DNA of 50,817 bases. Source: Deltaproteobacteria bacterium (lineage in GTDB: Bacteria; UBA10199; DSSB01; JACPFA01). This document shows, piece after piece, positions 2,109 to 50,535 of this stretch. The stretch is from assembly GCA_016183235.1 (NCBI GenBank), contig JACPFA010000023.1, positions 1 through 50,817 on the forward strand, given 5' to 3'. The notes under the pieces were generated by a model that searched no databases, was not told the DNA's origin, and saw only the letters and a list, made by a program, of their open reading frames with translations. Each line of letters begins with the position of its first letter. Position 1 is the stretch's first letter. The position numbers were made by a program, and so were the translations under genes.

Positions 2109-5100
2109 ATGAGCTTAACGGTCGAAACCCGTTCGCCCTTTGAAGATTTAGCTAGGCTGTACGATGCTGATCCAGCCTTTGTTGCACCCCGATTGCTAAG
2201 CCGAGCTGGCGATTTGAGCAACTCTAATTTAAGTGCCGCTTTATCTTTTTATGAATTTTTAGCCGAACGAGAACCGCATTCTTATTATGGAGCGATCGCT
2301 CGAAAAAAAATCGAAGACATCACAGGGTCGCAAGGGCTTACCTTTGGAAGGTTTGCATTCTTATCTAATGAAGCTCTAAAAAGTTTGGGTGACTACCGAA
2401 TTTCGGTACCTTGGTTGTTGGGAGGCCTGGCCTTCCCCATCGGTCGAGCCTTTGCCGGAAAAAAATGGTGGGGCACCTTAACCGGTTTGGGACTTGAAGT
2501 ACCCACCGTGACTTTATCAACCCACGGTCTGTTCAAACTTTCAGGCGCTGATGCCCCTGGCAACTTGGGGGATGACATGCTGCGTTTTGGCCTGGTGGCC
2601 TCGCTCTTTCGTGTTACTTCGCCGCTTGGCATTGGAGCATTTCGTTTAACCCATGGGGTGAATCCCGTCACTCAACTACCCGGGCGTTTTATTGCCCAAG
2701 CACCTTGGACTCGGCCTTTTTTTCAATACGGCACGCAATACAGCGCGCTGGTTACGGCTCACTCGATTGAAGCCAAAACCAAGCTGGTGCCTTCTGTGCC
2801 AGGTAGCAATCTCTGGGCTGAATCGTTTGTTTCTTTGGTTGAAATGAATCTGGCCGGTAGGGCCACCGGGGGAATCACTGAACCTTTCAATCGCCGCCTA
2901 TTAACCCGAAGCCATTTTTCTAAAAAAGGTTGGCCATGGAATTTTCGTTTACCTAGCGTTCCAAGACCTGCTCACCTGAGGCCAGCTTATGCAGGCGTTT
3001 TTTTGCCCGAACCGTTTCGGCGCCCTACCGTGATGGCCATGGCGGCGGGTGAAGGCGGTGGCCGTGGCTTAAGCGTCAGGCGCCTACGCCCAAACCGGAA
3101 GGCCGCACTTGCCATGTTACTCCGCACGGATTCACATCCGCGAATAAAATCCGTAGGCACTGACGATAATACCACTAACATTCGTGAGCGTTTGCTCAAA
3201 CAAATTACCGAGGTTGAACTAACTGCCGTAGAAGCCCTTTCAGGCAGGGCGCGCAGTCGCGAACTTGCTCGGCTGCTTTTCAAATATAACCCAACCCCAG
3301 AATTGATGGGCACCCTAACTACTCCAGGGGATAGCGATGGTTACACGGCACTACTTAATTTATTAATCGATTTTCACCTTCCTCTCTATAATAAAAGGCT
3401 TTATCTTGGGCCTGCTATCCTAAGCCAGACCCCTGAAGTTGAACTAAAGGCATACCGCAAAACCAAGATGGAACTAGATGCGGTTTGGAGACAAGATTGG
3501 CTTCAACTTTACACGGAATGGGAAGGCGTGGTTCGCACTGAGCTTGCTCGACAGTTTATCCATGAAAACCCAAGACAGACTAACAATACAACAGCAAGAG
3601 ATCAATTTGTCAGAAATAGATTACATCGAATTTATCTTCATGCCCTAGCCTTGAAATTTATGGATGACCATCCACAACTTCTTGCTTCGCTACCACGACC
3701 TCAACAAACTAGGCTTACCGCTTGTGATTTGGATCTTTGCCAATGGGTGGCCCAAACGGCAGACCTTGTGGATTATTCAAACCCTCTAGTCAATCGTCTA
3801 GGACGAGGCATGGATCTCATGGCAGAAGAAACTTCGGAGGCCTTTCGGCTTGAAGCCAAACGAGAGGCCGTAAGCTCAACCTTAGTGAGAATTCTTTTTT
3901 ATACTGATCATTTGAGCCAAGGGGCGGTGCCAGATGGAAAGGCCCTTCATCTGGCCCGCCAAAATTATCATTACTATGCAAGGAACATGGGCTTATTACC
4001 TGCCGCAGGTCGCATTCGTAGGCCTGACTTAAGAGATTGTGACCCACGAGCCTTTGTGAAACAAGAACGCGAAAGCCAAGTATTTGCTGGCAACGACCCT
4101 TTACTTTATCGTACCCTAGAAATAGCACGTCATATTCATAGGGGAGACCTGACCCCTTATCCTGCCAGCAAACACCAACTTAATTGGTTTATGGCTTCGA
4201 CCTTAGGTAGTACCCCGGAGCTACCCTATGTGCATTGGATGGTAAAACACCATCCTCATGTCCTTGCGGTGTTAGAAAGACCTGATGGAACTAAGGCGGC
4301 GCATTTTATGGTTGATCGTTTTCAAGCCAAGGAAACCAAGGCCTGGCTTAATTATAATCTGAGTACATTGGCCGAACGCGAGGCTTGGACTCCCCTAGAA
4401 ACCCGCGCGGCCTATGGTCTTTGTGATTTATTACAAAGGACCCCAAGCTTTCAAAAAATGCCGTCTGCACCAGCGTGGAGAAAGTTTCGTGCAATCTTTG
4501 AGGTAGATTTACAAACCCCCGCTGCTTTAACCAAAACGCTTGAAAGATTAGACGCCATTCGTGGCTACATACAAAAGCGATCTGAACCCGTTGAAACAGA
4601 GGTGACCGCGGAAATCGACGACCTTGAAACCAAGACTCTACAAACCCTTGCCCCTACTTACTCAAAATTAGGGGGCCGACGTTTACTATCACCCCCTCAA
4701 CTCCAAGCCTACCAAAGAAATCTTGTGGGCTTGGATGTTGCCTTTCAGGGTCTTGAAAAAGACCTCTTGGCCTTAGACCGTCGCATTGAGGCCAAATTAC
4801 TTGCGGCCAATCCAGAACTACAAGCCCCCATCTTAGATGAAGCCACTCGGGGCCAACGACAAGCACGTATGGCTGAGGCACACGCAACCCTTGATTTTTA
4901 TGAAACACTTATTCATAAAAATCAAAGCCCCGAAATCTCCGTTCAACACCGCCAGTCCCTCTCAGATGCCATCCATGAAACCCGAGGCTTGCTTCGCGAA
5001 TTCGAGGAAGGCTCGCTTGAAAATGAAGCCCTCTTAAGATTAGCCGAGGCAGAGCTGCCTAAAATTGATACAAGGATCCAACGCCGCCTCGAACGCAGCG

Positions 5101-5781: not shown

Positions 5782-5866
5782 CTGTCATTGCGAACCCAGC
5801 GAGGTGAAGCAATCCCATCGGTTAGACAGAGGAGATTGCTTCGACCTGCTGGCCTCGCAATGACAG
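5782..5866. repeat. R1 palindromic repeat, complete copy
   Basis: An 85 bp imperfect palindrome beginning CTGTCATTGCGA and ending TCGCAATGACAG, with inner GAAGCAATC / GAGATTGCTTC arms. It lies 20 bp after the stop of the giant gene. It is one of several R1 copies in the window, resembling the REP/MITE-like intergenic repeats common in bacterial genomes. Confidence 0.9.
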
Positions 5867-5891
5867 ACATTGCAAACCCCTTCACGGTTCC

Positions 5892-5930
5892 CCTGTCATT
5901 GCGAACCCCTTCAGGGGTGAAGCAATCTCT
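5892..5930. repeat. R1 repeat, half copy
   Basis: A 39 bp left half of R1 (CCTGTCATTGCGAACCCC...AAGCAATCTCT). It ends 6 bp before the tetR stop codon and has its own short internal palindrome (CCCCTTCAGGGG). Confidence 0.8.
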
Positions 5931-8617: not shown

Positions 8618-8685
8618 CTGTCATCCCCGCGAAGCATGCCCTCGACCCCGATCGGGGTCGAGGGCATGCTTCGCGGGGATGACAG
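8618..8685. repeat. R8 element: perfect 68 bp palindrome
   Basis: The two 34 bp halves (CTGTCATCCCCGCGAAGC... to the centre GATC) are exact reverse complements with no spacer. It lies between convergent genes, so a bidirectional terminator role is possible, although no T-tract follows. The flank 8681-8708 is identical (reverse orientation) to the flank of a second R8 copy at 42102-42129. Confidence 0.95.
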
Positions 8686-8705
8686 CCTATTTAAAAGTTA
8701 AAACA

Positions 8706-9332
8706 CTAAAGTTCCTTAAAACTTGCGATGACCGAATTGAGCACATTTTTTTGAGAGACAAACTTGGAGTAAAGCGTCCAGGCAATGATTTGATAATAAT
8801 TTTTGGAAGACTCAACCGTGGTATGTAAATACCCAAGTTTTACATTTTCAAACGTAGCAATAATTTCATATTGAATGGCCGAAAAACCACCAACTGTGAT
8901 TTTAAAAGGCCCCTGTTCATTGATCGCAGTCAGCGCACTTTTCAAACTATCTCGCGTGGTATCAGAATGTTTTTGAATATCCATGTTCTCAAAATCAGCC
9001 CGTGACTCAGTGAGAACCGCCACGTACATAATGGACGCTCGGTTTCCGGCTTGAAGCTCTGCCTTTTCATTAAGGCTAGAAATAGGAATCCAACCTTCGG
9101 GCAAGGTAATTTGCGACTGCCCATCGGAGGCCTTCAAAATATTTCCATTGAGGGTTTGGGTTTGAGATTCGGATTTAAGCCCATCATGATGAGCAGGTTG
9201 ATCTATTTTAGCTTTGTCCTTCTTTTGAAAAATTTTAGGCACCAACAGGGCAAGGGGATTTTTACAACCCAGCAATGCCCCCACAACAATACCCACGCAC
9301 AAGATTTTTAGTTTTATCACTTTAAAACCCAA
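8706..9332 (-). CDS. Predicted lipoprotein, unknown function
   Basis: A protein of up to 208 residues with a hydrophobic N-terminus and a lipobox (ALLGC), so probably a membrane-anchored periplasmic lipoprotein. The mature part starts with a charged linker, followed by an alpha/beta region (LPEGWIPIS, then GGFSAIQYEI, YYQIIAWT, VIASFKEL) that recalls PsbP/DUF-type lipoproteins; this is not firm. The start is TTG at 9332 or GTG at 9320, both with weak ribosome sites. It follows the FKBP gene by 3 bp and is likely co-transcribed. Its TAG stop is provided by the end of the R8 flank. Confidence 0.75.
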   Translation of the reverse strand: MGFKVIKLKILCVGIVVGALLGCKNPLALLVPKIFQKKDKAKIDQPAHHDGLKSESQTQTLNGNILKASDGQSQITLPEGWIPISSLNEKAELQAGNRASIMYVAVLTESRADFENMDIQKHSDTTRDSLKSALTAINEQGPFKITVGGFSAIQYEIIATFENVKLGYLHTTVESSKNYYQIIAWTLYSKFVSQKNVLNSVIASFKEL

Positions 9333-13749: not shown

Positions 13750-14000
13750 CCGTGAGGGCGAGCAAGCTTTTGCAGCCCATCGCTCCAACGCATGCGCCTC
13801 AGGACAGGGTCCGCGCCGGGGCCCCCAATGCGAGCTAGCCGTTATGTACTTTCTGTCATTGCGAGCCCAACGGGCGTGGCAATCTCACCGGTTAAACAGA
13901 AGAGATTGCTTCGGCTGGCTGGCCTCGCAATGACAGAGGGGGCCCCGCCGCTGGAGCGCCGGGCTGCAAAAGCTTGCTCGCCCTCACGGCTATTGCTTCT
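13739..14000. repeat. 262 bp nested palindrome joining the folA and msrB ends
   Basis: Perfect 40 bp arms at 13739-13778 and 13961-14000 (AGAAGCAATAGCCGTGAGGG... and its complement). Inside lies an R9 module (13776-13841, CCCATCGCTCC...GCTAGCCG) and a complete R1 copy (13853-13936). The arms include the last three sense codons' bases and stop codons of both convergent genes. As RNA it would form a very strong hairpin and could end transcription from both sides. Confidence 0.95.
13853..13936. repeat. R1 palindromic repeat inside the folA-msrB palindrome
   Basis: An 84 bp R1 copy: CTGTCATTGCGAGCCC...GGCAATCTC and GAGATTGCTTCGG...TCGCAATGACAG. It forms the tip region of the larger hairpin. Confidence 0.9.
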
Positions 14001-20246: not shown

Positions 20247-22145
20247 TCAAAGATTTCCTGGAGTTGTTGCAGCACGCACCATAAGATCACTAATTCTTTT
20301 GCTCAAACCCTTAGGATTGGTAAGTTCGGCCCCCTCCGTTAACAAGGCCTGATCTAAGAGTAATTGAACATAATCGGCAAATTGCGCACTGGTATGATCG
20401 CTCTCATAAAGCCTTTGTAAAACTTCTAAAAGAGGATGGTTAGGGTTAATCTCCAAAATCTTTTTTTGCACTGGCACGGCTTGGCCCAAAGATTTTAACA
20501 TTTGTTCCATTTGTGGAGTTAGCGTGCCCGTCTCGGCCACCAAACAACAAACACTATCTGTTAAGCGAGGAGAAAATCTTACTTCTTTAACTTGAGCCTC
20601 TAATTTTTCACCGATCGCCTTGAGTAGATCTTTATATTTCTTACCTTGTTCTTTTAAATTTTCTTCAACCGACTTTTTTTCTTCTTCGGTATGCAAATCA
20701 ATGGCCTCATGGCTAATCGACTTAATGGGTTTTTCCTGATAGTTGGTTAAAGAACCCATGACCCATTGATCTACAGGGTCCATCATCAATAAAACCTCTA
20801 CCTCTTTGGCTTTGAAGGCCTCTAATTGGGGAGTTGCTAAGGCCTTCGTTCTGTTTTCAGCAATGAGATAATAAATTTCTTTTTGGGTTGGTTTCATCCC
20901 TTCTAAATATTGTTTTAAAGACTTGTATTGGCCGGTTTCGGTTTGAGTAGTTTCAAATAATAACAAATCAGCAATTTTGTCTCGTTGTTCACTATCAAAG
21001 TGAAGCCCTTCCTTTAAAACTTTGCCAAACTGCGCGTAAAATTGTTCGTATTCCTTGCGATTTTGCTCCATCCACTCAGCCAGATTGCCTAACACTTTAC
21101 GAACCAAATTCTTTTTGATCTTTTCTAGGCGTGGATCTTCTTGGATCATCTCACGGGATACATTTAAGGTTAAGTCACCACAATCCACCACCCCCTTTAA
21201 AAATCGTAAGTAAGGAGGAATGAGTTTTTTGCAATCCTCCATAATAAATACGCGATTAATATAGAGTTGCAGCCCACTATTAAATTCTGGGGAATAAAGA
21301 TCCAGCGGCGCATGGGCAGAAATATAAATAAGGGCTTTAAATTCTAGGGTGCCTTCGCCCCGATAATGAATCACCCGCAGGGGATCTTGAAAATCGTGAC
21401 TCAAATGTTTGTAAAATTCATGATATTCTTTCGCTTCAATTTCGGAGGGTGATTTTAACCAAATGGCCTTGCGGGAATTCAAAACCTCTTCGGTTTCTTT
21501 GCCATCTTTTTTAGTCACCAATGCAATGGGATGCTCAATAAAATCAGAATATTTTTTGACCACCCCCCTTAAAGTAAATTCTTCTAAAAAATTGAGGGCG
21601 TCTTCTTTAAGATACAAGATTACTTCGGTTCCGCGAGCAAATTTGCCGGTAGGTTCGATCTCAAAATTGCCTTGGCCCTGCGATGCCCACTGACAGCCTC
21701 TGGTCTGGGCCTTGCGAGTTTTTACCACCACCCGATCCGACACAATAAAAGCCGAATAAAACCCAACCCCAAACTGCCCAATAAAATCCATCGACGACAA
21801 TTCTTGTGTACCTTTGAGTTGTTGCAGAAAAGTTTTGGTGCCTGAGCGAGCAATGGTTCCCAAATGCTCCCGCAATTCTTGTTCATCCATTCCACAACCA
21901 TTGTCTGTAATGGTTAAAGTTTTGGCCTCTGCATTAGGAATAATCGAAATTTTATATTCTTGGCTTTTTTCTTCTAACAATTCAGGCTTAGTGAGGGCCT
22001 CAAAACGGATTTTATCGATGGCATCACTGGCATTCGAAATCAATTCGCGTAAAAAGATCTCGCGATTAGAATATAAAGAGTGCGTGACTAAGTTTAAAAG
22101 TTCTTTAACATCGGCTTGAAATTCAAAAGAAGATTTTTCAGACAT
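20247..22145 (-). CDS. htpG: Molecular chaperone HtpG (Hsp90)
   Basis: A 632-residue ATP-dependent chaperone, matching the bacterial Hsp90 length. GHKL ATPase motifs: SNASDAIDKIRFEAL, DNGCGMDEQEL and GQFGVGFYSAF. The middle-domain GVVDCGDLTLNVSREMIQ (about residues 318-335) carries the catalytic Arg loop. Stands alone; the small exported gene lies 14 bp upstream on the same strand and may be co-transcribed. Confidence 0.98.
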   Translation of the reverse strand: MSEKSSFEFQADVKELLNLVTHSLYSNREIFLRELISNASDAIDKIRFEALTKPELLEEKSQEYKISIIPNAEAKTLTITDNGCGMDEQELREHLGTIARSGTKTFLQQLKGTQELSSMDFIGQFGVGFYSAFIVSDRVVVKTRKAQTRGCQWASQGQGNFEIEPTGKFARGTEVILYLKEDALNFLEEFTLRGVVKKYSDFIEHPIALVTKKDGKETEEVLNSRKAIWLKSPSEIEAKEYHEFYKHLSHDFQDPLRVIHYRGEGTLEFKALIYISAHAPLDLYSPEFNSGLQLYINRVFIMEDCKKLIPPYLRFLKGVVDCGDLTLNVSREMIQEDPRLEKIKKNLVRKVLGNLAEWMEQNRKEYEQFYAQFGKVLKEGLHFDSEQRDKIADLLLFETTQTETGQYKSLKQYLEGMKPTQKEIYYLIAENRTKALATPQLEAFKAKEVEVLLMMDPVDQWVMGSLTNYQEKPIKSISHEAIDLHTEEEKKSVEENLKEQGKKYKDLLKAIGEKLEAQVKEVRFSPRLTDSVCCLVAETGTLTPQMEQMLKSLGQAVPVQKKILEINPNHPLLEVLQRLYESDHTSAQFADYVQLLLDQALLTEGAELTNPKGLSKRISDLMVRAATTPGNL

Positions 22146-22159
22146 GATAAGATTACCTG

Positions 22160-22447
22160 CTAATTTGTTGGGATTGATTCAGTATAGGGGCAAACAATTT
22201 CTTTTTTGGCCTCGGCTGCAGCCCATCCTGCCCAATAATCCGATTCCGTTCCAATTTTGTTTTCGTTTTTTTCAAGGCCTGCACATTGTTTAAAAAACGT
22301 CGTTTGCTTGGCTGTATCCGCCGTATGCCCCACTACTTTGGCCTTATAGCCAAAGGCCCAACAAGTACATTCATCGGGTTGCTTGGCTTGTAAGTTTGCT
22401 CCACAAAAAAATAATGTCATTGCGAGCGCAAGCGAAGCAATCTTCAT
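22160..22447 (-). CDS. Small exported protein whose signal peptide is encoded by an R1 repeat
   Basis: A 95-residue protein with a signal peptide (MKIASLALAMTLFFCGANLQ, then A) and a mature Cys-containing part of about 74 residues (ECTCWAFGYKAK...WAGWAAAEAKKEIVCPYTE) of unknown function. The start at 22447 has AAGGA six bases upstream; an ATG six codons earlier (MQGIKM) is also possible. Codons 1-11 coincide with a half R1 repeat, which reads KIASLALAMT in this frame. It lies just upstream of htpG on the same strand. Confidence 0.7.
   Translation of the reverse strand: MKIASLALAMTLFFCGANLQAKQPDECTCWAFGYKAKVVGHTADTAKQTTFFKQCAGLEKNENKIGTESDYWAGWAAAEAKKEIVCPYTESIPTN
22415..22447. repeat. R1 half copy inside a coding start
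   Basis: On the plus strand TGTCATTGCGAGCGCAAGCG, then AAGCAATCTTCA, the same sequence family as the intergenic R1 arms. It covers the first codons of the small exported gene on the minus strand. Confidence 0.85.
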
Positions 22448-22525
22448 TTTTATTCCTTGCATTTGCACCTCGATTTTACTTAAACCTTTGCCCTTACTAA
22501 TAATGCCGATGCATGAAAAGTCAAT

Positions 22526-22907: not shown

Positions 22908-23453
22908 ATGAAAAAATTGATTGTTTTATTGCTAGCCATCGCAGGCTCTGTCCTCACTACAAACTCAAGCTATGCTGACGACACCGAAGCTCAAGCAAAA
23001 AAGTTTTGTGGGAAGAATAAGCCTTGTGTTAGCGCCTACTTAAGGGCAAAGTATTACCAGGATGAACTAAAAAAATGTAAGGCCAAATCTACGTCTCCAG
23101 CCCTTCCGAGCATTCCTCCTCCAAGTCAAGCCCCGATCCCTGCAACTTCGCCTATGCCCAACACTGGGGACAGTTGTAACTTTACCCTGGTTACGAAGGC
23201 TGAAATTCTTGTCAAAATTCAATCAATGGACAAAGACCCACTCTCGGCTGAAACAATTGCTGCTTTAAAGGCAGGGTGTGCTGCTTCTTCTGTCGATCAA
23301 CAAAAATTTATAGATGGTTTTCTTTGCGACATTCACGCCTACACAACTTTCAGTAATGACGCTGACATTATTGAGGCGGTTGACAACCTTGAACATGTCG
23401 ATACCGATAGTTTTGGAAAAGAAGATCAATGTTCTGAAATTAATGCTCTCTAA
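22908..23453 (+). CDS. Small exported protein, unknown function
   Basis: 181 residues with a clear signal peptide (MKKLIVLLLAIAGSVLTTNS, cleaved near SYA-DD). The mature protein has an N-terminal Lys/Cys-rich helical part, a Pro/Ser-rich linker (about residues 65-85) and a C-terminal helical domain with several Cys. Start ATG 22908 follows GGGGG; an upstream in-frame start gives no signal peptide at the terminus. Ends 5 bp from the convergent lipoprotein gene. No family recognised. Confidence 0.7.
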   Translation: MKKLIVLLLAIAGSVLTTNSSYADDTEAQAKKFCGKNKPCVSAYLRAKYYQDELKKCKAKSTSPALPSIPPPSQAPIPATSPMPNTGDSCNFTLVTKAEILVKIQSMDKDPLSAETIAALKAGCAASSVDQQKFIDGFLCDIHAYTTFSNDADIIEAVDNLEHVDTDSFGKEDQCSEINAL

Positions 23454-28556: not shown

Positions 28557-28764
28557 GCCACGTCTTTTCGAGGTAGGGAGAGGTCAAGGGAGAGCCCGCG
28601 CCCGGTTGGCCTAGTCGGGCTTAAAAATTTTTTGTTTTTGATTGAATTAGAGTATTCCTTCGTCATCCTCTAATTCAAAAAAACAATAAAATTTTTAAGC
28701 CCTCTTACGGCCGCCCTCCTGCGCTGAAAGGCTCTCCCTTGGCCTCTCCCTACCTCGAAAAGAC
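28557..28764. repeat. R2 palindromic element with shared core
   Basis: Outer arms GCCACGTCTTTTCGAGGTAG... (from 28557) and GGCTCTCCCTTGG...CTACCTCGAAAAGAC (to 28764), the same as in the 50.3 kb R2. Inside are arms GGGCTTAAAAATTTT / AAAATTTTTAAGCCC and a core TTGAATTAGAG-loop-CTCTAATTCAA that is also the core of the otherwise different element at 44891-45108. The right flank CAAATATTTGAGAAAT is also shared with the 50.3 kb copy. Confidence 0.9.
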
Positions 28765-39532: not shown

Positions 39533-39759
39533 AAAATTTTGTAATGCCTCAGCTTTAGGGGTTTAGCTTTCCGAAACCCTTTGCGCGAGAGCGACGAGTC
39601 ATGAGCGCTTAAAAAACATATGGTTTGTAGAAGTTAGGGTATGACCAGAGGGAATACACTAACTTCCAAACAAACCAATGTTTTTTAAGTGCGAATACGA
39701 GGAGCGGAGCGCGGGTTGAGGAAAGTTAAACCCCTAAAGCTGAGGCATTACAAAATTTT
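39533..39759. repeat. 227 bp nested palindrome after ppcA
   Basis: Perfect 33 bp arms at 39533-39565 and 39727-39759 (AAAATTTTGTAATGCCTCAG...). A second nested pair lies inside (GCGCTTAAAAAACAT at 39605-39619 with ATGTTTTTTAAGTGCG at 39678-39693). It fills most of the 316 bp gap to the histone gene and begins 13 bp after the ppcA stop; nothing else is seen there apart from the histone ribosome site. Confidence 0.93.
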
Positions 39760-40740: not shown

Positions 40741-40949
40741 GTTTATTTTAAAAAGTTTTTTGAAAAGTCGGCTGAGGCTGGAAGGGGTTTGTCCCTGTCG
40801 CTTCGCTCAGGGTAAACTCCGGCTTTCACCTCTATGGCTATATAACCGTGAAAGCCGAGACTTTGAGTGCGCCCAGGGGCCGTAACCCCTGGGCGACACG
40901 GACCCCTGGAAGCCTCTGCCGACTTTTCAAAAAACTTTTTAAAATAAAC
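40741..40949. repeat. R4 multi-hairpin element, copy 2
   Basis: A 209 bp element with perfect 32 bp outer arms at 40741-40772 and 40918-40949 (GTTTATTTTAAAAAGTTTTT...). Its inner ~150 bp is nearly identical to 28808-28962, but its outer arms are unrelated to those of that copy. The right arm touches the TAG stop codon of the capA gene. It accounts for most of the 308 bp gap; 40641-40740 shows only a plain AT-rich stretch. Confidence 0.93.
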
Positions 40950-42101: not shown

Positions 42102-42236
42102 TAGTGTTTTAACTTTTAAATAGGCTGTCATCCCCGCGAAGGCGGGGATCCAGTTCTGTAAGTAGGGCTAAGCACTGGATCCCCGCTTTCGCGAGGATGA
42201 CAGAAAACATACTATCAAAAAGTTAAAATACTATAG
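42102..42236. repeat. R8 palindromic element, second copy with long flanks
   Basis: Palindrome CTGTCATCCCCGCGAAGGCG...CGAGGATGACAG (core 42125-42212) with outer arms TAGTGTTTTAACTTTT (from 42102) and AAAGTTAAAATACTATAG (to 42236). The left flank of 28 bp is identical, inverted, to 8681-8708. It lies directly upstream of capA. Confidence 0.93.
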
Positions 42237-43329: not shown

Positions 43330-43395
43330 CTGTCATTGCGAGCCCAATGGGCGTGGCAATCTCACCGGTTAAACATTAAAGATTGTTTTACTTCA
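43330..43395. repeat. R1 repeat, diverged copy
   Basis: The left half matches the 13853 copy almost base for base (CTGTCATTGCGAGCCCAATG, ...GGCAATCTCACCGGTTAAAC); the right half has decayed to AAAGATTGTTTTACTTC. Confidence 0.8.
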
Positions 43396-44871: not shown

Positions 44872-44890
44872 ACCTATATTTAAATGATAT

Positions 44891-45108
44891 AAAAAGTCTT
44901 CTTAAAGGGCTGCAAGGGGGCAGCTTGAGAACCTGTAGCACAGGAGTGAAGGCGTAGGAGGTCAAAAAAATCCTATTATTTTTTTGAATTAGAGGACGAC
45001 AGAGGAGTACTCTAATTCAACCAAAAATAAAGGATTTTTTTGGCCGAGTAGGCTTCACGGGTGCGGGTTCTCAAGCTGCCCTCTTGCAGCCCTTTAAGAA
45101 GACTTTTT
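44891..45108. repeat. 218 bp nested palindrome with the R2-type core
   Basis: Outer arms of 43 bp at 44891-44933 and 45066-45108 (AAAAAGTCTTCTTAAAGGGC... and complement, one mismatch). The core TTGAATTAGAG-loop-CTCTAATTCAA is the same as in the 28.6 kb R2 element, in reverse. The right flank AGGTGCGGTGATTTGCAGAT is like AGATGCGGCAATATGCAAAT after R4 copy 1. Together with R1 halves it fills the 345 bp gap before glpB. Confidence 0.93.
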
Positions 45109-45148
45109 AGGTGCGGTGATTTGCAGATGAATTGAAGAACGAAAAGGA

Positions 45149-45216
45149 AGATTGCCACGCTCGCAAACGGTGCTCGCTCGCAATGACATAGAGCCCTACT
45201 GGGTTCACAATGACAT
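45149..45216. repeat. Two R1 half copies next to glpB
   Basis: AGATTGCCACGCTCGC...CGCAATGACAT (45149-45189) and a second right half TACTGGGTTCACAATGACAT ending exactly at the glpB stop codon (45217). Both are in the right-half orientation. Confidence 0.75.
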
Positions 45217-50187: not shown

Positions 50188-50226
50188 CTGTCATTGCGAG
50201 GCCCTGCAGGGGCCGTGGCAATCTCA
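50188..50226. repeat. R1 repeat, half copy
   Basis: CTGTCATTGCGAGGCCCTGC...GGCCGTGGCAATCTCA, the left half of R1, 22 bp upstream of aspS. Confidence 0.8.
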
Positions 50227-50314
50227 GTCAGCTAGCCTAAGCAAAAAGTCAAAACCATTACTAGTGAATATTTTAGCCAGTTAAGGAATCTTTCCTTTAT
50301 CGCCTACAAATCGA

Positions 50315-50535
50315 GCCACGTCTTTTCGAGGTAGGGAGAGGCCAATGGAGAGCCCGCGCCCGGTCGGACTAAGGAGGGTCTCTGTCATTGCGAGCGAGCC
50401 CCGTTGGCGAGCGTGGCAATCTCCAACATTTTAAAACTGAAGATTGCTTCACCCTGCTGGGTTCGCAATGACAGAAACTATCATAGGCCGACCGGGCGCG
50501 GGCTCTCCCTTGGCCTCTCCCTACCTCGAAAAGAC
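50315..50535. repeat. R2 element with a complete R1 in its loop
   Basis: R2 outer arms at 50315-50367 (GCCACGTCTTTTCGAGGTAG...CCCGCGCCCGGTCGG) and 50488-50535 (CCGACCGGGCGCGGGCTCTC...GAAAAGAC). A complete 93 bp R1 copy (50382-50474) sits in the loop, in place of the TTGAATTAGAG core of the 28.6 kb R2. Confidence 0.93.

Follow-up and report, generated by a model that had tools for sequence, protein, structure and literature searches.

A palindromic REP as the probable source of half a signal-peptide core in a candidate small exported protein, with further cases in other genes

In the 50,817-nt stretch of DNA analysed here (the window) we observed a REP of the CGTC/TGTC superfamily lying in frame near the start of a small gene, P0001. 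The explanation we favour, and consider probable, is that a mobile REP landed at the 5' end of an exported-protein gene and is translated there as half of the core of a Sec signal peptide. The features of this region are the following.

22160..22447, minus strand: open reading frame P0001, 95 aa, MKIASLALAMTLFFCGANLQA followed by KQPDEC..., a candidate small exported protein (open reading frame list; codon score)
22385..22447, minus strand: predicted Sec signal peptide MKIASLALAMTLFFCGANLQA, with probable cleavage after LQA (heuristic signal-peptide score positive)
22163..22384, minus strand: mature part, 74 aa, four cysteines, without known homologue (homologue searches, codon score)
22415..22443, plus strand: single REP unit TGTCATTGCGAGCGCAAGCGAAGCAATCT, CGTC/TGTC superfamily, read antisense as IASLALAMT
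22453..22458, minus strand: Shine-Dalgarno-like AAGGAA, 5 nt ahead of the ATG and outside the repeat (sequence)
22497..22524, minus strand: possible weak promoter TTGACT-16-TATTAG upstream of P0001 (sequence; unreported by the consensus scan)
20247..22145, minus strand: htpG (Hsp90), directly downstream of P0001 after a 14-nt gap, same strand (NF003555, E 8e-222)

The gene that the original prediction had placed at 22160-22447 was confirmed as an open reading frame, with the correction that it is read from the minus strand (full translation MKIASLALAMTLFFCGANLQAKQPDECTCWAFGYKAKVVGHTADTAKQTTFFKQCAGLEKNENKIGTESDYWAGWAAAEAKKEIVCPYTESIPTN). It lies opposite a tRNA-Ala gene, and the promoter consensus scan returned none on the minus strand of this region. 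Elsewhere in the window, positions 22908-23453 on the plus strand hold an orphan exported-protein candidate (MKKLIVLLLAIAGSVLTTNSSYADDTEAQ..., 181 aa) belonging to no Pfam or NCBIfam family.

The repeat in the N-terminus of P0001 is real and in frame, as had been proposed. The unit at 22415-22443 is a 29-mer with a shuffle expectation of 0.00, and the exact pattern CATTGCGAG-N0-14-GAAGCAATC was matched 147 times in the 2.61 Mb genome, compared to 0 in the reversed control. It was first described as a half repeat making up the first 11 codons, but it is one complete REP unit that runs from the last part of codon 2 through codon 11, with only codons 3-11 (IASLALAMT in the minus-strand reading) being repeat. 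The family is dispersed through the genome with consensus ends TGTCATTGCGAG...GAAGCAATCT, and 106 copies of a sister form with the ending GTGGCAATC were counted. A relaxed pattern gave 324-327 units in 219 clusters, as singletons and inverted dimers, within 786 kb of stretches chosen around repeat copies. Other members of the family within the window are listed below.

5783..5927, both strands: cluster of three intergenic REP units (5783-5814 plus, 5834-5865 minus, 5894-5927 plus)
13854..13935, both strands: inverted REP dimer (13854-13884 plus, 13904-13935 minus)
43331..43361, plus strand: single REP unit
45150..45188, minus strand: long REP unit
50189..50473, both strands: three REP units (50189-50223 plus, 50383-50421 plus, 50442-50473 minus)

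All units within the window start with TGTC, in agreement with the terminal CGTC (often TGTC or CCTC) of the superfamily. They measure 28-39 nt with outer arms ATTGC/GCAAT, where the superfamily is described as a 20-40 nt palindrome with a stem starting AT, and the high copy number and dispersal as singletons and inverted dimers also agree. Compared to the uninterrupted 8-9 bp stem of the superfamily, the copy at 22415-22443 pairs over its outer 5 bp, is interrupted in its inner part, and its RNA fold favours other pairs; folding around it was no better than in shuffles (z +0.5). A literature search with the repeat sequence itself gave nothing on repeats among the papers listed. Two further kinds of repeat were observed in the window: a perfect palindrome with 34-nt arms at 8618-8685 (CTGTCATCCCCGCGAAGCATGCCCTCGACCCCGA), which is of another type (compare 8669-8708 and 42102-42141, 100% inverted), and MITE-like elements of about 200-230 bp at 28562-28764, 50320-50535, 44890-45109, 39533-39759 and 40741-40949, bounded by 35-52 nt inverted repeats with >90% complementarity.

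The division of labour between repeat and gene was determined from the unit's boundaries. Flank counts show that conservation stops at AATCT/C, and the P0001 unit ends with AATCT at 22443; the ATG at 22445-22447 is therefore outside the REP, by one base, and the repeat does not supply the start codon as had been suggested. The idea that the repeat reads as a signal peptide holds for the first half of the h-region, formed by the roughly nine REP residues IASLALAMT, while the second half and the c-region (LFFCGANLQA) are ordinary non-repeat sequence. P0001 passes a home-made signal-peptide rule (charged n-region, uncharged hydrophobic 10-mer, and small-x-small or lipobox) as MK / IASLALAMTLFFCGA / NLQA. 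Its score is positive with the REP residues and negative either when they are removed or when the protein is started from Met10, which lies inside the REP, is the only later in-frame start, and has neither a ribosome site nor a charged n-region. We conclude that the REP supplies about half of the core, and neither the start codon nor the cleavage site. From the sequence we infer that P0001 is translated from the ATG at 22445-22447, exported, and cleaved after LQA. In the mechanism we propose, a REP of the superfamily would have inserted at the 5' end of this small exported-protein gene upstream of htpG and would be translated as the first half of the Sec core, while P0001 itself would provide, immediately ahead of the REP, the start codon and ribosome site and, immediately after it, the end of the core and the cleavage site.

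This explanation depends on P0001 being a gene, and the rival that best survives is that it is not: an ordinary intergenic REP would lie between tRNA-Ala and htpG, with the hydrophobic frame of the repeat happening to follow an ATG. Pfam, NCBIfam, the PDB, 46 class genomes and the contigs of GTDB r220 were searched for homologues of P0001 and gave none, so conservation of the mature part lacks support and P0001 may not be a real gene; the absence itself says little, because this genome is the sole member of its family among those searched. Small open reading frames that start from a REP are common and mostly spurious: among the listed ATG+REP openings in the frame of P0001 across bacteria, 3 of 62 extend >60 aa beyond the repeat, and the other 59 are short and surely spurious, a fair warning about P0001. 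Against this stands the codon usage of the non-repeat part, which favours coding. In shadow frames, 0.5% of stretches score as high, and all five alternative frames of this part are negative. The score corresponds to the 21st percentile of true coding stretches and, at +8.7 compared to a median of -5.7, ranks 103rd among 459 small leftover open reading frames. The ribosome-binding site, the short gap to htpG and the plausible cleavage site in non-repeat sequence also speak for a gene, as does the presence of the same arrangement in genes of known families. An AlphaFold model of P0001 alone had a mean pLDDT of 54. Taken together we consider P0001 likely to be a real gene for an exported protein, and the absence of a gene rather unlikely.

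Further cases were sought as coding open reading frames with a REP inside the stretch from the start codon to the predicted cleavage site, provided that no later start beyond the REP would itself give a signal peptide. In this genome eight genes were retained, P0001 being one; the others are as follows.

TPM-domain protein (L112): KKKIATLALAMTLLFIPQFVHA (PF04536, E 2e-33)
TolB: MKNLF, a REP dimer of about 24 residues, and VFFAMTLLLLLIATPAKA followed by EIYILIDQ
SurA: MKKCIP[CHCEAKPKQS]QRISF...
SLT transglycosylase
TPR protein: MKRSLFNIG[VIASASEAI]FLLFFLFLPPQLARA
868-aa protein: MQKNLKP[MSLRAQAKQS]SLFLLLFFLFFPITQIQA
lipoprotein: [TTG]KKFFLIIRM[NVIASASVAI]FFSTLLGC

In the 868-aa protein, the preceding base and the TG of the unit form an ATG at the edge of the element, the one arrangement in which a REP could supply the start. 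The TPM gene lacks a conventional ATG nearby; translation would begin either at a TTG located 34 codons ahead of the mature part or at an ATG about 40 codons ahead of it. TolB and L077 have an ATG after the REPs as a weaker, uncharged alternative start. Four candidates (L050, L089, L113, L418) were dropped, being either explained by a start further downstream or false calls, and L028:4429 was left uncounted since its frame also continues from the preceding gene. The latter belongs to the 868-aa frame (L028:2497-5100, G000:C15), where a second in-frame REP (4429-4457) lies between a C-terminal-anchor-like stretch (GGCSL...LLLALLMTLL) and a signal-peptide-like one (FLFTSAFFLLLPLPTQA), ahead of a barrel-like protein; two exported genes were apparently joined here through a REP. 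In L112:2325-2441 (G000:C38), the remainder of the TPM N-terminus upstream of the REP is a second repeat-like sequence (GGATGACGTCATGCCGGACTTTGATCCGGCATCC), so that this signal peptide looks repeat-derived along its entire front part.

These genes bear on a second rival, that the REP founded P0001, an orphan frame having become exported once the repeat gave it a hydrophobic N-terminus, which is gene birth and not insertion. P0001 is an orphan, LFFCGANLQA alone scores as no signal peptide, and in L112 a repeat pair forms the whole front half of the signal peptide, all of which are consistent with such a birth. In TolB, SurA and the TPM gene, however, the repeats entered established exported genes, the codon usage of P0001 is already adapted, and a repeat-free ancestor of P0001 is not available. 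Insertion is the more probable path for P0001, and we regard gene birth as improbable. It is very unlikely that the REP is transcribed and left untranslated, with a later start and a role as a 5' RNA control element of P0001 or htpG, since although Di Nocera et al. (PMC3733652) judged most N-terminal REPs of P. putida, C. koseri and S. maltophilia in this way, the sole later start is Met10, the region's RNA shows no unusual folding, and the other seven cases in this genome are also without a downstream start competent for a signal peptide.

Relatives with and without the repeat were compared. The TolB of 19 relatives begins with a plain signal peptide, in most cases 17-23 aa long, that stops at the same point and lacks the REP dimer (e.g. 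MKRRLSLALFAFLLLLPLSSQA followed by AIYILIDQ). The TPM relatives mostly have normal signal peptides. Exceptions are G018, whose n-region is encoded by a REP, and G005, whose n-region holds a different palindromic repeat. In the latter orthologue (L251, G005:C204), that repeat, CCCCCCTCTTAATTTAAGAGGGGG, is read in frame in the signal peptide as PPLNLRGG. The search for other in-frame copies at gene starts, as proposed originally, extends beyond this genome: two other genomes of the class (G035, G021) add at least 7 cases. By an automated rule, G035 had 5 signal-peptide and 7 internal REP events, with one more signal-peptide case found by eye (L386, whose core is wholly REP, GIASSLLLLAMT). G021 had 3 signal-peptide and 16 internal events by the same rule, with 2 signal-peptide events remaining after removal of L418, judged a false positive of the automated criterion. 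In three near-identical G035 genes (L340, L377, L378), REP dimers occupy one shared position between two domains (KIVIAEGVIARPEGPKQS...KAGYTVLVIDDD), reflecting either REP insertion before duplication or repeated contig ends. One case comes from another phylum. A scan of 84,980 species for ATGAA followed by a P0001-type REP gave many phyla among the matches listed, including an Ignavibacteriales MAG in which MKIASLTLAMTIFVALSFSQG heads a protein of 1244 aa whose type-IX sorting domain scores above cut-off. This T9SS substrate reads MKIASLxLAMT in the same register as P0001 and, as judged from its sequence, is an independent repeat of the P0001 arrangement.

The in-gene REPs of this genome are concentrated in signal peptides. 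Of 521 predicted genes (mean 308 aa), 155 scored positive for a signal peptide, and about 2.5% of coding residues lie in one. With counts that rest on the home-made rule and partly manual event lists, such that the order of magnitude matters and not the digits, 8 of 22 in-frame REP events fell in signal peptides compared to about 2.5% expected by length (p ~4e-8), as did 8 of 10 N-terminal events compared to 30% of genes with a signal peptide (p ~0.0015). A short subtype also stood out. Units of 27-29 nt were found in signal peptides in 8 of 48 instances and at other coding positions in 9 of 48, while the longer units gave 2 and 12 of 279, respectively (Fisher, 4.5e-6 and 2.7e-8). The exact core CATTGCGAGCGCAAGCGNNGCAATC has 8 copies in the genome, 5 of which are solitary units in signal peptides, P0001 included; the remaining 3 lie within inverted REP pairs outside signal peptides.

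The reading frames of the repeat may explain this location. Some are positively charged (SLRAxAKQS, CHCExxxKQS/RSNL) and would suit an n-region; hydrophobic frames with little or no charge (VIASASxAI, IASLxLAMT) would suit a core. REP insertions in signal peptides would outlast those elsewhere in genes because signal peptides are defined by physical character and not by exact sequence. In TolB-like cases the repeat would only lengthen the n-region, while in P0001, the TPM protein and the Ignavibacteriales protein it would form part of the core and be needed for export. A broader proposal is that REPs are a recurring source of export signals, with the short 28-nt subtype preferentially kept in signal peptides, P0001-like frames having gained their signal peptide from a REP, and repeats seeding new exported proteins; we hold this only tentatively and think it unlikely in full. 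N-terminal palindromic repeats in genes are usually dismissed as untranslated or as annotation errors, and here they lie inside the signal peptides of TolB and SurA. Signal peptides thus appear as a measurable hot spot accepting REP insertions, and insertion as a testable route for rebuilding or acquiring export signals. Gene callers may trim or mis-start genes with N-terminal REPs.

The CGTC-tagged REP superfamily and its in-gene copies were described by Di Nocera et al. (2013, PMC3733652), who excluded proteins <120 aa and regarded many N-terminal copies as untranslated. The repeats found here resemble that superfamily in their ends (TGTC ATTGC...GCAAT), their 25-40 nt palindromes, their occurrence as singles and inverted dimers, their occasional in-frame copies and their presence in several phyla. 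They differ in that signal peptides are the enriched in-gene location, copies at such sites being undescribed in the available text of the survey. The literature searched, a collection lacking most subscription journals, held no account of REPs that recur in signal peptides. Published examples exist of in-gene REPs and of one signal peptide made by a mobile element; recurrence inside signal peptides appears undescribed. The original prediction's likening of the repeat to Rickettsia palindromic elements was apt, as some of these (RPE-4 and RPE-6) are assigned to the CGTC superfamily in that survey (PMC3733652). Both are palindromic repeats translated in frame within protein genes. Classical Rickettsia elements are palindromes of 105-146 bp (PMC2229807, PMC3733652), which the 28-nt unit is not, and the closest relatives among the genomes compared share none of the Rickettsia traits tested; here, units of 28-38 nt land in signal peptides as n-region extension or core. 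The nearest published signal peptide is that of Yersinia YPO1552, partly made by the RU-2/YPAL MITE (Delihas 2007, PMC2759123). That is a single case in which an unrelated 168-bp element forms the first 30 of 41 residues, whereas here a 28-nt REP occurs in many independent genes of several genomes and two phyla.
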